Origin: Falsiroseomonas frigidaquae
Lineage (GTDB): Bacteria > Pseudomonadota > Alphaproteobacteria > Acetobacterales > Acetobacteraceae
Direction: 5' to 3'
Assembly (NCBI RefSeq): GCF_012163145.1
Contig: NZ_JAAVTX010000002.1
Span: 248,001 to 312,000, forward strand
Length of the DNA: 64,000 nt
Made by a program: the position numbers and the translations under genes. The notes under the pieces were generated by a model, which did no database searches, had not been told where the DNA came from, and saw only the letters and a program-made list of their open reading frames with translations. Shown here piece by piece: positions 30,727-50,995 of this stretch (positions are counted from its first letter, which is position 1; every line of letters begins with the position of its first letter).

Positions 30727-31662
30727 ATGCCCGACGCCAATACTGCCGCCTCTGGCCCCGTCCTGCCGATCGGCTTCGCCGATACCCCCGGCCGCAACCG
30801 CCGGCTGCGCGAGCTTCTGGCGGGGAAGGAGCTGTTCCTGGCCCCCGGCGCCTTCGATTGCGTCACCGCCCGGCTGGTCGATGCCTCCGGCTTCCCGGCG
30901 CTATACATCACCGGCGCCGGCATCTCGATGAGCGCGCTAGGCGCGCCGGATGTGGCGGCGCTGTCCTTCGGCGAGATCATCGACCGCATCCGCCGCATCT
31001 GCGACGTGGTCTCCATCCCGGTCATCGCCGATGGCGATACCGGCTATGGCGGCCCGCTGAACGTGATCCGCACCGTGCGGGAATATGAGCGCGCCGGCGT
31101 CTCCGCCATCCAGATCGAGGATCAGGAATGGCCGAAGAAGTGCGGCCATGAGCCGGGCCGCAAGCTGGTTTCCGCGACCGACATGCAGATGCGCATCCGC
31201 GCCGCGGTGGAAGCGCGGCGGGACCCGGATTTCGTGGTGATCGCCCGCACCGATGCCCGCGCCGGGGAGGGCTTGGCCGCCGCCATCGGCCGCGCCCGGC
31301 AGTACCGGGAGGCCGGGGCCGATGTGATCTTCGTCGAAAGCCCGCAATCCGAGGCAGAGCTGGAGGAAGTCGGCCGCGCCTTCCCGGACGTGCCGTTGCT
31401 GGCGAATATGGTGGAAGGCGGCAAGACGCCGATCCTGCCGGCGGAGCGCCTGCAGGCGCTGGGCTTCCGCCTGGCGATCTACCCCAACGCCATGACGCGG
31501 CTGATCGCCAAGGCGGGGATGGAGATGCTGGCCTCGCTGAAGGAGACCGGCTCCTCCAACGCCGTGGCGGACCGCATGTACAGCCATGGCAAGCTGTGGG
31601 AGCTGTTCGACAACGCCACCTGGCGGGCGCTGGAGGATCGCTACCTGCGGGTGGAGAAGTAG
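30727..31662 (+). CDS. Isocitrate lyase/PEP mutase superfamily enzyme
   Basis: 311 residues, with a strong ribosome site (AAGGAGGT) ahead of ATG 30727. The superfamily's Mg-binding and catalytic features are clear: ADGDTGYGG, IEDQ, and the active-site loop KKCGHEPGRKLV, whose catalytic Cys is typical of isocitrate and methylisocitrate lyases rather than PEP mutases. It could be a 2-methylisocitrate-lyase-like or a related C-C bond lyase. No prpC/prpD genes adjoin, so I give no symbol. The structured repeat at 31694-31787 follows it. Confidence 0.88.
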   Translation: MPDANTAASGPVLPIGFADTPGRNRRLRELLAGKELFLAPGAFDCVTARLVDASGFPALYITGAGISMSALGAPDVAALSFGEIIDRIRRICDVVSIPVIADGDTGYGGPLNVIRTVREYERAGVSAIQIEDQEWPKKCGHEPGRKLVSATDMQMRIRAAVEARRDPDFVVIARTDARAGEGLAAAIGRARQYREAGADVIFVESPQSEAELEEVGRAFPDVPLLANMVEGGKTPILPAERLQALGFRLAIYPNAMTRLIAKAGMEMLASLKETGSSNAVADRMYSHGKLWELFDNATWRALEDRYLRVEK

Positions 31663-31693
31663 GGGCGCCAGATCAACAGAGGGTGCAACCTGC

Positions 31694-31787
31694 GGCCGGC
31701 GTTCAAGCCGGCCGAGCGGCCGGATGGCCGCCGCCGCCTATGCGGCGAAGCCAAGCCGCGCGGAGCGCGGCGCCCGGCGTCCGAGGG
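31694..31787. repeat. Structured intergenic element, copy A (three hairpins)
   Basis: Between convergent genes. Hairpin 1: GGCCGG (31694-31699) pairs with CCGGCC (31708-31713) around an 8-nt loop. Hairpin 2: GCCGC-CTAT-GCGGC (31733-31746). Hairpin 3: GCCGCGC-GGA-GCGCGGC (31755-31771). A conserved tail GCCCGGCG...GAGGG lies at 31772-31787. From 31726 to 31787 it aligns without gaps to 49285-49346, while the stems of hairpins 2 and 3 differ in sequence but remain paired. No U-tract follows, so it is not a classical intrinsic terminator. Confidence 0.7.
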
Positions 31788-31793
31788 TAGAAT

Positions 31794-32105
31794 TCACCCT
31801 TCCTCGGCAATGATCCGGTGCTGGCGGACCACCTCCGCCATCACCCGGCGGATGAACTCCTCGGCGAAATCCTCATCCAGCCCGGCGCGGGCGGCGTTCT
31901 CCCGCAGGCGGGCGACCTTCGCCTCCTCCCGCGCCACATCCACGGCCTCCAGCCGGTGGCGGGCCTTGAGCTGGCCCACTTCCCGCGTCACCCGGAAGCG
32001 CTCGGCCAGCATGGCAACCAGAGCGGTATCGATATTGTCGATGCTGCGGCGCAGTCGCCAGAGATCCTCCGGTGCGGCCTGCTCGGCCGTGGTGTCTTCG
32101 GGCAT
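31794..32105 (-). CDS. Chorismate mutase (AroQ type)
   Basis: 103 residues forming the all-helical AroQ fold: LRRSIDNIDTALVAMLAERF, then a long helix 2 beginning LKARHRLEAVDVAREE, and a third helix with VVRQHRIIAEEG. Arg, Lys and Glu residues in family positions (R in LRRSID, K of the LKAR segment) are present. It converts chorismate to prephenate for Phe and Tyr synthesis. It is encoded alone, with no PDT or DAHP-synthase domain, 84 bp downstream of aapP on the same strand and probably read through from it or from its own weak promoter. Confidence 0.9.
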   Translation of the reverse strand: MPEDTTAEQAAPEDLWRLRRSIDNIDTALVAMLAERFRVTREVGQLKARHRLEAVDVAREEAKVARLRENAARAGLDEDFAEEFIRRVMAEVVRQHRIIAEEG

Positions 32106-48101: not shown

Positions 48102-49250
48102 ATGGCGGACGCAGGAGACAGGCACCGCATGGCGGGCAGGCCCGCAGCGGGGGAAGGCGGCGGCTGGATGCTGGCCGCGGCGGCACTGGCGGGGCTGCTG
48201 GCGCTGGATTCCGCCCGGCGCGGGCCGCGCCCGTCGCCCGTGCGACGCACCCCGCCCCGGCGTGAGGCCCACCCCGGCAACCGGCCGGAGGCCGGCCCGG
48301 GCGCACGGGCGACGGAGCCGGGGGCCGGGCGCAACGCCGAACGCCCGACCGAGATTCCGGCGCGCGGCTGGTGGCAGATCGTCAAGCGCACGGTGATGCA
48401 GGCCAGCGAGGACCGGCTGATGACGGAAGCCGCCGGCATCACCTTCTACACCCTGCTGGCGCTGTTCCCGGCGCTGGCGGCGCTGGTGTCTCTCTACGCG
48501 CTGGTGGCGGACCCGACGACGATCCAGGGGCATCTGGATGCGCTCGGCGGCATCGTGCCGGGCGGTGGCATGGAGATCCTCACGGAGCAGGTGCAGCGCG
48601 TGGCGGAATCCGCCGATGGGACGCTGGGCTTCGGCGCCATCGCTGGCCTGCTCGTGTCGCTATGGTCGGCCAACCAGGCGGCGAAGGCGTTGTTCGACGC
48701 GCTGAACGTGGTCTACGAGGAGCATGAGAAGCGCAGCTTCATCAAGCTGACGCTGACCACGCTGGCCTTCACGCTCAGCTTCATCCTGTTCGCCATCCTG
48801 ACCATGGTCGCGGTGGTGGCGGTGCCGGTGGTGCTCGGCCTGGTCGGCCTGGGCAGCACGGCGGAGACGCTGCTGGATTATGGTCGCTGGCCGGTGATGC
48901 TGGCGCTGGTCGGGCTGGTGCTGGCCTGCCTGTACCGCTGGGGCCCGAGCCGGGCGGAGGCCAAGTGGCGCTGGGTGAGTTGGGGCAGCGCCTTCGCCGC
49001 GCTCGTCTGGCTCGCCGCCTCCGCCGGCTTCTCCTGGTACGTCGCCAATTTCGGCAGCTACAACGAGACCTACGGCTCGCTCGGCGCGGTCATGGGCTTC
49101 ATGACCTGGATCTGGATTTCCGCCATCGTCATCCTGCTCGGAGCGGAGCTGAACGCCGAGATGGAGCACCAGACCGCGCGGGACAGCACCACGGTGCCGG
49201 ACCGGCCGATGGGCCGGCGCGGCGCCGAGATGGCCGATACCGTGGCCTGA
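48102..49250 (+). CDS. YihY/BrkB-family membrane protein
   Basis: 382 residues from ATG 48102 (GAGGAG 7 bp upstream). A variable N-terminal 90 residues (one hydrophobic segment, Arg/Pro-rich) is followed by the YihY/virulence factor BrkB core: MTEAAGITFYTLLALFPALAALVSLYAL, LWSANQAAKALFDALNVVYEE, six membrane helices and the FGSYNETYGSLGAVMGFMTWIWISA motif. Function unknown; long mis-named ribonuclease BN. Divergent from mlaE. The structured repeat copy B follows directly. Confidence 0.9.
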   Translation: MADAGDRHRMAGRPAAGEGGGWMLAAAALAGLLALDSARRGPRPSPVRRTPPRREAHPGNRPEAGPGARATEPGAGRNAERPTEIPARGWWQIVKRTVMQASEDRLMTEAAGITFYTLLALFPALAALVSLYALVADPTTIQGHLDALGGIVPGGGMEILTEQVQRVAESADGTLGFGAIAGLLVSLWSANQAAKALFDALNVVYEEHEKRSFIKLTLTTLAFTLSFILFAILTMVAVVAVPVVLGLVGLGSTAETLLDYGRWPVMLALVGLVLACLYRWGPSRAEAKWRWVSWGSAFAALVWLAASAGFSWYVANFGSYNETYGSLGAVMGFMTWIWISAIVILLGAELNAEMEHQTARDSTTVPDRPMGRRGAEMADTVA

Positions 49251-49258
49251 AACCGAGC

Positions 49259-49346
49259 GGACCGGCTTCTTGACCGGTCCGAACGGCCGCCGCGGCCAGT
49301 GCCGCGAAGCCAGGGAAACCGGAGGTTTCCGCCCGGCGCTTGAGGG
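49259..49346. repeat. Structured intergenic element, copy B (three hairpins)
   Basis: Hairpin 1: GGACCGG (49259-49265) pairs with CCGGTCC (49274-49280), loop 8 nt. Hairpin 2: GCGGC-CAGT-GCCGC (49292-49305). Hairpin 3: GGAAACC-GGA-GGTTTCC (49314-49330). Tail GCCCGGCG...GAGGG at 49331-49346. A further palindrome CGGCCG...CGGCCG follows (49357-49375). Spacing from hairpin 2 to the tail is identical to copy A, with compensatory stem changes. It lies between the convergent yihY-like and substrate-binding-protein genes. Confidence 0.7.
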
Positions 49347-49387
49347 CGGCCCGGAGCGGCCGCGCGAAACGGCCGTTCGTATAAGTC

Positions 49388-50995
49388 TCAGCGTGCCGCC
49401 TTGCGGATGTTCCAGGCGATGATGATGCCTGGCATCGCCAGCACGCCGGAGATGCGCGGGGTGACCGCCGAGGGCAGGTACCACTGCCCATAGGGCACGT
49501 AGGGCACCAGGTTGTAGGCGCTGGCGTGCAGCTCCTCCAGGATGCGCTTCCGCTCCTCGGCGTTGGCGGCGTAGGGGAAGGCATCGATCAGCGCCTGGTG
49601 CGCGGCATCGCAGGGCCAGCCCGGCCAGGCCCGGTCGCAACTCGCCTGCATCGGCACATTTCCCACGGGGTCGGAGGCGCCGAGGCCGTTCCAGTAGGTC
49701 AGGCCGATATGCCAGCCGCCCTCGCTGGGCGGGCGGCGATTGGCGCGGCGCCCGGCCATCGAGGCGAAGTCCATCGCCTGCACATCCGTACGGAAGCCGA
49801 CGGACTGCATCTGCTGCGCCAGCACCAGGGTCGCGGTGTGGACGAAGGGATTGTCGGTCGGGTCCATCATCACGATCGGCGTACCATCATAGCCGCTTTC
49901 GCGCAGCAATTGCCGCGCCCGTTCGCGGGCGGCGGGGCTGCCGAGCCGTTCCGGCACGCCGGCATTGGTCTCCTGCGCCGAGCCGCAGACGAAGAAGGCG
50001 TGGCAGACCTGGTACAGCGCCGGGTCGGGGAACATGCCCTGGAGGATTTCCTCCTGGTTCACCAGCAGCATCAGCGCCTGCCGCGCGCGCGGGTCGTTGA
50101 AAGGCGGGTGGATGTGGTTCATGCGGATCATGCCCGGCGCACCGAGCGTATTGGTGCGGACGATCTGCATGCCGCGTCGCTGCAGCATCGGCAGGAAGTC
50201 CACGCCGGGGCTCTCGATGTAGTCGATCTCGCCCTGGATCAGCGCCAGCGTCGAGGTCTGCGCATTGGCGATGTTCTGCCACTCGACGCGGTCGACATGC
50301 ACCACCTTGCCGCCGGCGGTGCCGGAGGCGGGCTCGCTGCGCGGCACGTAGTTCGGGTTGCGGCGATACACCACCGTGCTGCCGGGCACCCATTCCTCGC
50401 GTGAGAAGATGAAGGGCCCGCTGCCGATGGTCTCGCGGATCGCGGTGAAGGGGTCGGTCGCGGCGATGCGCGCCGGCATGATGGCGGGCATGTTGCCGGC
50501 CGGCTTCGAGAGCGCATCCAGCATCAGCCCGTAGGGCCGGTTCAGCGTCCAGACGATGGTCTTGCCATCGGCCTGCGGCTCCATGCTCGCGGTGATCGCC
50601 ATGATCTGCCGGCCATGCGGGTCGCGCGCGCCCCAGCGGCGCAGCGAGGCCACGACATCGGTCGCAGTGACCGGCGCGCCGTCATGGAAGGCCAGGCCGT
50701 CGCGCAGCGTGAAGCGCCAGACCAGCGCATCGTCGGAGACACTGTACGCGCCCACCATCTGCGGCTGCGGGCGCTGCTGCGCGTCGCGGCCAAACAGCTG
50801 ATCGTAGATCATGTGCGCGTGGGACTGCACCACGCCGGCGGTGGTGTTGATCGGGTCCAGCGTCTGCAGATCCGCATTCGGCACCATGCGCAGGATGCGC
50901 TCGGGCGGGATCGCCTGGGCAATGGCCCTCGGTGCGAATACCGGCCCGGCCAGCAGGCTCGCGCCGAGGACCAGGGTGGCGAGGCGGGTCAGCAT
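49388..50995 (-). CDS. ABC transporter substrate-binding protein, peptide/nickel (DppA-like) family 5
   Basis: 535 residues with a signal peptide (MLTRLATLVLGASLLAGPVFA, cleavage near residue 26). Family-5 motifs include VVQSHAHMIYDQLFGRDAQ, WRFTLRDGLAFHDGAPVTATDVVASLRRW and NHIHPPFNDPRARQAL. It binds oligopeptides or similar solutes in the periplasm. No permease or ATPase genes lie nearby, so it is an orphan and may use a remote transporter. Confidence 0.92.
   Translation of the reverse strand: MLTRLATLVLGASLLAGPVFAPRAIAQAIPPERILRMVPNADLQTLDPINTTAGVVQSHAHMIYDQLFGRDAQQRPQPQMVGAYSVSDDALVWRFTLRDGLAFHDGAPVTATDVVASLRRWGARDPHGRQIMAITASMEPQADGKTIVWTLNRPYGLMLDALSKPAGNMPAIMPARIAATDPFTAIRETIGSGPFIFSREEWVPGSTVVYRRNPNYVPRSEPASGTAGGKVVHVDRVEWQNIANAQTSTLALIQGEIDYIESPGVDFLPMLQRRGMQIVRTNTLGAPGMIRMNHIHPPFNDPRARQALMLLVNQEEILQGMFPDPALYQVCHAFFVCGSAQETNAGVPERLGSPAARERARQLLRESGYDGTPIVMMDPTDNPFVHTATLVLAQQMQSVGFRTDVQAMDFASMAGRRANRRPPSEGGWHIGLTYWNGLGASDPVGNVPMQASCDRAWPGWPCDAAHQALIDAFPYAANAEERKRILEELHASAYNLVPYVPYGQWYLPSAVTPRISGVLAMPGIIIAWNIRKAAR

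Follow-up and report, generated by a model that had tools for sequence, protein, structure and literature searches.

The window (the whole stretch of DNA that was analysed, 64,000 nucleotides from Falsiroseomonas frigidaquae) carries two related hairpin-rich elements, copies A and B. Copy A spans about 31687-31787 on the + strand. It is preceded by a 311-amino-acid-residue open reading frame (30727..31662, + strand), which we take to be an isocitrate lyase/PEP mutase-like protein, and followed by a convergent gene (31794..32105, − strand), presumably chorismate mutase-like. Copy B spans 49251..49381, also on the + strand, between a 382-residue frame (48102..49250, + strand; the gene caller puts its start at 48168), which we assume to be YihY-like, and a convergent gene on the − strand (49388..50995), presumably encoding an ABC substrate-binding-like protein. 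These coordinates, taken from open reading frames and gene calls, agree with the original prediction that both copies lie between convergent genes. Both elements are longer than was proposed there.

Copy A consists of a leader AACCTG, four hairpins and a tail GAGGG, all read on the + strand. Hairpin 1 (31693..31714; 31693-31700 paired with 31707-31714) was seen in the predicted fold. Hairpin 2 of the family model (31716..31731; 31716-31721 with 31726-31731), hairpin 3 (31732..31747; 31732-31737 with 31742-31747) and hairpin 4 (31750..31778) were found by both folding and covariation; the last two had been called hairpins 2 and 3 in the original prediction. Hairpin 4 has a GGA loop and a variable 7-bp stem (31755-31761 with 31765-31771, fold and covariation), which is surrounded by an outer GCC/GGC (31750-31752 with 31776-31778). 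Judged from its sequence, copy A consists of the core only, and it owes its place in the family to this core alone; because TACCA/TGGTA ends were not found there, it is not filed as an IS630 MITE, the candidate class of the full-length copies.

Copy B appears from its sequence to be a degenerate full-length element of 131 bp, AACCGAGCGGACC...GGCCGTTCGTA. Its ends are decayed but can be aligned to two intact relatives (L041 and L039), which have the ends TACCAGCGG...GGCCGTTGGTA or CGCTGGTA. The left flank is TGA (49248..49250, + strand), the stop codon of the upstream gene, and the right flank is TAA (49382..49384, + strand), which is of the TNA type and differs from the left one. On the + strand, hairpin 1 (49259..49280; GGACCGG at 49259-49265 with CCGGTCC at 49274-49280) was read from the sequence, and a nearly identical helix is present in the fold. 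Hairpin 3 (49291..49306; 49291-49296 with 49301-49306) was found in the sequence, the fold and the family model. Hairpin 4 with its outer GCC/GGC (49309..49337; variable stem 49314-49320 with 49324-49330) follows the family model; the single-sequence fold contains the variable stem and lacks the outer pairs.

Bases 31726-31787 of copy A and 49285-49346 of copy B align without gaps, with 44 of 62 positions identical. This identity alone is only moderately above chance, because the runner-up 62-base match to copy A in the window, on both strands, reaches 38/62. As originally described, the stems differ in sequence and are paired in each copy: the variable stem is GCCGCGC/GCGCGGC in copy A and GGAAACC/GGTTTCC in copy B, and the 5-bp stem is GCCGC/GCGGC and GCGGC/GCCGC, respectively. 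Fold z-scores in 111-base windows were −3.04 for copy A and −1.77 for copy B on the + strand, and −2.86 and −3.10 on the − strand. Single words occur in the window near chance level, GCGAAGCCA 39 times with at most one mismatch (34.5 expected) and GCCCGGCGNNNGAGGG 37 times with at most two (24.2 expected). The composite pattern GCGAAGCCA-N-GGA-N-CCCGGCG has 8 exact copies genome-wide, and its reversed control has none. This genome-wide count is the decisive evidence that the observation is real.

A covariance model was built from the 8 exact-pattern copies. It gave 63 matches in the F. frigidaquae genome at E≤1, 53 of them at E≤0.001, so that the refuting outcome named in the original prediction, a scan without further copies, clearly did not occur; copies A and B both belong to a single dispersed family of hairpin-rich small mobile DNA. 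The anatomy was read from 54 of 56 own-genome matches with flanks, the two partial matches being dropped here and in the work on context and flanks. In the common plan, which has exceptions, hairpin 1 is variable and is followed by GAG; next come hairpin 2, which has a GAAY-like loop, then hairpin 3 and AGCCAAG. The plan continues with hairpin 4 (GGA(T) loop, outer GCC/GGC), CGCCCGGCG, NNTGAGGG and often a fifth hairpin, the stem of which varies between copies. Of 53 own rows, 41 contain AGCCARG and 29 contain CCCGGCG; the GC content of the matches is 0.69-0.86. Full-length copies, mostly 132-172 bp, have the ends TACCA...TGGTA, an arm on each side and, between them, the conserved core, the hairpins of which are linked through unpaired words that are conserved as well (AGCCAAG, a GGA loop, CGCCCGGCG and NNTGAGGG). 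Head-to-tail arrays with a period of about 105 bases lie at C16:397682-398073 and C13:10682-11070. Tandem arrays of four similar core units, period about 104-105 bases, were seen on the − strand at L067:3683-4074 and L068:4683-5067. At L092, L085:6075-6181, L093 and L104, hairpin 3 is much longer (CGCGCCCAGACCA...CGGCGCG), which marks a subfamily; L104 also carries a repeated half-element.

The pairing covaries far beyond the controls. In 53 distinct own rows, standard pairs made up 96.3% of the cells against 75.6% after shuffling, and the covariation score was 0.375 against 0.091 shuffled and at most 0.057 with the partners slid. In 91 rows from named taxa the score was 0.488 against 0.108 shuffled; these loci were picked by exact pattern, so that their conserved words are biased, and no selection was made on the stems. 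Each of the two alignments had been fitted to the structure of the model, and identical rows were left out of the pair counts. The proposal that pairing is kept while the sequence changes is upheld by both sets. No known Rfam RNA family accounts for the element in the loci scanned: there were no matches above the curated gathering cut-off in the window and four element loci, and in four other loci searched with an E-value threshold there was one sub-threshold sul1 match, outside the element.

The family is widely spread in alphaproteobacteria. When relatives were scanned with the model, 21 of the 60 genomes searched had matches at E≤0.001, including all 16 of the genus, 2 of 20 from other genera of the family and 3 of 24 from other families. 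Each of the 15 other genus genomes had 35-78 matches and our own genome 51, under stricter filters and with at most 78 candidates scored. A class sample gave matches in 26 of 289 genomes (at most 16 candidates scored per genome). A named scan found at least 80 loci among at least 119 stretches, and the taxa among the matches listed include Roseomonas-like genera, Roseococcus, Magnetospirillum, Paramagnetospirillum, Azospirillum, Niveispirillum, Nitrospirillum, Telmatospirillum, Terasakiella, Erythrobacter, Qipengyuania and MAGs. A plasmid search with the array unit of our genome had no match, while copies from two Azospirillum loci matched 3 and 7 plasmid records; a phage search with one Azospirillum copy found none. 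In IMG/VR, 62 stretches match. One of its records, UViG_2708742415_000004 (47.9 kb; L238, L277, L279), has 26 matches at E≤0.01 in three stretches, arranged as arrays on both strands at a density far above that of our genome.

The ends of the element were examined for terminal words. Among 85 placed copies of the A5 set, ATACCA lies within 70 bases on the 5' side of 15 and TGGTAT within 80 bases on the 3' side of 23, where the three control offsets gave 0 or 1. Own copies (the A4 set) have the 5' word in 4 of 56 and the 3' word in 6 of 56, the latter word also turning up in 3 of 55 at one of the control offsets. In most copies, copy A among them, no TIR is visible. TIR pairs were defined as TACCA/TGGTA with at least 11 of 18 terminal bases matching, 80-260 bp apart, and were searched in 451 records (2.64 Mb, some overlapping). 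This gave 33 pairs, three of which are alternates in one locus, L172. A TNA flank is present on the left in 27 of 33 and on the right in 26. The two flanks are identical 3-mers of the form TNA in 19 pairs, the corresponding counts being 3 for 1-mers, 1 for 2-mers and 0 for 4-mers. The core motif is contained in 26 of the 33 pairs, 18 of them with identical 3-mers; 23 of these 26 are 132-172 bp long and the others 199, 251 and 254 bp. An own copy at C12:465352 has the flanks TCA and TTA, and the empty site in G002 is a single TCA.

The L172 locus contains an IS630-family transposase in pieces (Pfam DDE_3, E 3.7e-27 for one piece; HTH_33 and HTH_32), which adjoins the TIR element and has the flanks TAA and TTA of its own. 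A scan of 34 loci (L451-L484) for IS630 ends found TIR pairs in four, 1158-1167 bp long, and all four (L452, L453, L454, L478) have TACCA ends and identical TNA flanks. Their hosts are Rhodovastum, Microvirga, Sinorhizobium meliloti and genome G016. At their left ends, the G016 IS630 and a Telmatospirillum element are identical at 22 of 27 positions. The IS630 family is usually described as duplicating TA. The full-length form has IS630-like TIRs and the same kind of duplication as these IS630 elements, and it is short and without a transposase gene. A helper in the same genome is expected but not defining, since helpers can be lost; PF13358 has no match in our genome, nor in G003, G005, G009 and G014 (4 of the 15 other genus genomes), all of them copy-rich, and draft genomes may miss IS copies at contig ends. 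PF13358 is present in 15 of 21 element-bearing genomes and in 19 of 39 others.

Other candidates for a partner were discarded. A TIR-like pair around a helicase-like frame (L226:6220-7965, by eye) was taken as chance. A long partner with the M-type ends of our genome was sought, and all pairs formed by the pattern hits were 91-235 bp long. As for a dedicated gene between neighbouring copies, inspection of seven loci by eye showed only metabolic, transport, regulatory and hypothetical genes.

Filled and empty orthologous sites identify the copies as a mobile element. Ten junctions, a non-random choice of high-scoring copies together with A and B, were compared with up to four close relatives each, with further genus genomes added for A and B. 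Eight of the ten are polymorphic, with at least one relative lacking the copy. Copy A is shared with G002 and G003 and missing from G001 and G008, and it was not seen in six further relatives. G002, G003 and G008 have no copy B; at its site G001 has a different copy in the opposite orientation and G010 has family-like sequence (by eye). The sites L085, L083, L086, L069, L070 and L074 are each empty in at least one relative, and the L069 site of G001 again holds a different copy in the opposite orientation. The L079 copy is common to our genome and G001, is tripled, as tandem units, in G008 and is decayed in G002 and G003. The L071 copy is shared with G002, and its flanks are not joined in the other three relatives. 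The idea of a REP-like mobile repeat, raised in the original prediction, thus holds as far as mobility goes. Other palindromes were met at some sites. Downstream of the ortholog of the gene preceding copy B, L334, L335 and L337 (in G014, G013 and G006) have a different, very large palindrome, a candidate for another repeat family. The element-free junctions L299, L331 and L437 carry a different GC-rich palindrome, CCCTCCCCC...GGGGGAGGG, which in L299 is followed by TTTT and is terminator-like.

The L085 junction, which by eye we take to be ribBA-ribH, bears on whether the core moves by itself. The own copy there (L085:2652-2783) has at its borders a 17-bp direct repeat of the gene-overlap sequence, and in G001, G002 and G008 the junction is empty, with overlapping genes. 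This is the sole such case among own copies outside tandem arrays; around own-genome copies in general no target duplication was seen, the best direct repeats otherwise being at about the level of mismatched flanks. The core could be a separate mobile unit that was captured by IS630-type MITEs and spreads alone by another enzyme, as the 17-bp duplication, the tandem arrays and the TIR-less insertions missing in relatives (L070, L083, L085) would suggest. However, core-only copies could be full-length copies with decayed ends, and the left edge of the different G003 copy in the L085 junction reads TGA-TACC. On balance we consider a separate core possible but somewhat unlikely.

The copies are placed at gene ends. 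According to a home-made gene caller, 16 of 54 own copies lie between convergent genes, 35 between co-directional and 1 between divergent genes, and of the remaining two one overlaps a called gene and the other is located at an edge; background gene pairs in the same loci are 150 co-directional, 33 convergent and 31 divergent. Among the co-directional copies 20 are in the orientation of the genes, a number inflated by two arrays, and 15 are opposite. After 8 of the 33 TIR pairs were dropped (no core, both edges non-TNA, or L172 alternates), 13 of the remaining 25 full-length copies (52%) lie exactly at the stop codon of a neighbour, TAA or TGA. Stop codons make up 18%, 30% or 41% of intergenic TNA sites depending on the background (p 1e-4, 0.017 and 0.19), and because of this range the excess over background is only suggestive.

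Why the stems stay paired was examined in three sets of orthologous copies. Of 348 paired positions 9 had changed, and of 162 unpaired ones 35; pairing was assigned from the fold predicted for the own copy, the sequence pairs are non-independent and the stems are GC-rich. The stem conservation implied by the original prediction, which had proposed selection on structure, is present in these sets. Selection on mobility alone fails to explain stems that are kept in resident orthologous copies. Intermediates with G-U and A-C are about equal (30 and 34 cells in two alignments; 7 and 7, small numbers, when 35 co-directional rows are oriented by transcription). The cause of the pairing therefore probably acts on DNA, not on one RNA strand, and may be selection or templated correction. 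Template switching at quasi-palindromes, which copies one arm onto the other, would produce paired changes by mutation alone. It would fit the similar rarity of A-C and G-U intermediates and loops that drift while stems hardly do, but single-sided stem changes exist in L071 and L079, and the conserved unpaired words in the consensus of own copies require another cause. As the source of the paired changes, it seems to us a rather unlikely, though reasonable, candidate.

A functional 3'-end RNA element, either a bidirectional terminator or an mRNA stabiliser, would be selected by the host, with mobility incidental. The conserved stems of the orthologs and the near lack of copies between divergent genes are in its favour. 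Against it, a scan of copies A and B found no stem followed by a T-run at either, which leaves intrinsic terminators at these two sites unsupported and goes against the bidirectional terminator suggested earlier. A cause at the RNA level gains nothing from the pairs either, since G-U is not in excess over A-C and the copies have no orientation preference. In addition, relatives manage without the copy at 8 of 10 junctions, and the L079 site of G002 and G003 holds decayed remnants. We regard this explanation as unlikely, while a copy may still have gained a benefit after insertion.

A REP/REPIN-like family moved by a RAYT (IS200-type Y1 tyrosine transposase) is very improbable: hairpins with conserved unpaired words, gene-end siting, head-to-tail clusters of units of about 105 nt and both orientations would suit it, but PF01797, the transposase for which a search had been advised, is in none of the 16 genus genomes (the control was positive in E. 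coli), which largely refutes it for the genus, and in 7 of 26 element-bearing against 51 of 263 other genomes of the class sample, GTAG and CGTC occur in 8 and 16 of 53 own rows and neither in the consensus, and TIRs with a TNA duplication are DDE-like. RAYT was rejected as mobiliser, being not found in the genus and not associated with the element in the class sample.

The reading we favour, and consider probable, is a non-autonomous IS630-type MITE family with a conserved multi-hairpin core, of which copy B is a degenerate full-length member and copy A a core-only one. An IS630-family (DDE) transposase, acting in trans and perhaps no longer resident, would move the full-length form. Since TNA includes TAA and TGA, insertion at a stop codon would duplicate it and leave the gene intact; such targets, together with selection against promoter hits, may bring copies to gene ends. 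After insertion, the pairing of the core could be kept by host selection for a gene-end hairpin or by template-switch correction of the palindrome. Copy A may have lost its ends by decay or may have moved in another way. A bolder version, in which these are class-wide MITEs that settle at stop codons, the core is a portable gene-end module of DNA hairpins long kept paired by the cell, and core-only units spread by a second, RAYT-independent mechanism, is to our mind distinctly unlikely.

The favoured reading gives the anatomy and the probable engine of an abundant intergenic repeat of many alphaproteobacterial genomes. With it, gene-end siting would have a simple explanation, the duplication of TAA or TGA stop codons at TNA targets, and the orthologous copies are material for measuring selection against templated mutation in palindrome pairing. 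We found no published name for the family. No description of it was recognised in the portions of the open-access literature available here (including PMC12306157, PMC3733652, PMC6006769, PMC3245306, PMC3049150 and PMC2229807), which is not proof of absence.

The IS630 elements with TACCA ends from Rhodovastum, Microvirga and Sinorhizobium are like the present family in the start of the TIR and the TNA duplication, but they are 1158-1167 bp long and coding. In the parts of PMC3049150 and PMC2229807 drawn on, RUP of Streptococcus pneumoniae is a 107-bp repeat attributed to IS630-Spn1 and is, like the present family, a small intergenic non-autonomous repeat with IS630-like ends. RUP is AT-rich and has TA-containing targets, whereas the present family is GC-rich and has a multi-hairpin core with changing stems and 3-bp TNA duplications. 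BOX, from the same host, is modular and structured and encodes the stop codon of a gene in 36 cases, a stop-codon overlap shared with our family (PMC3049150, in part); by its description it is set apart by another host and another proposed helper IS, ISSpn2. Correia/NEMIS, ERIC and the Caulobacter CIR are likewise MITE-like palindromic repeats, and are set apart by their description as other families in the table of PMC2229807. CGTC REPs, in the sections of PMC3733652 consulted, belong mostly to Alphaproteobacteria (including A. lipoferum), apparently have no dedicated transposase and are reported missing in Acetobacteraceae. According to the same sections, CGTC and GTAG REPs are, like the present family, hairpins between unidirectional and convergent genes, and they consist of a hairpin of 20-40 bp with a terminal tag, CGTC REPs almost always having AT at the base of the stem. 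Unlike REPs, the present family has several hairpins over about 80-170 bp, and TIRs on its full copies.
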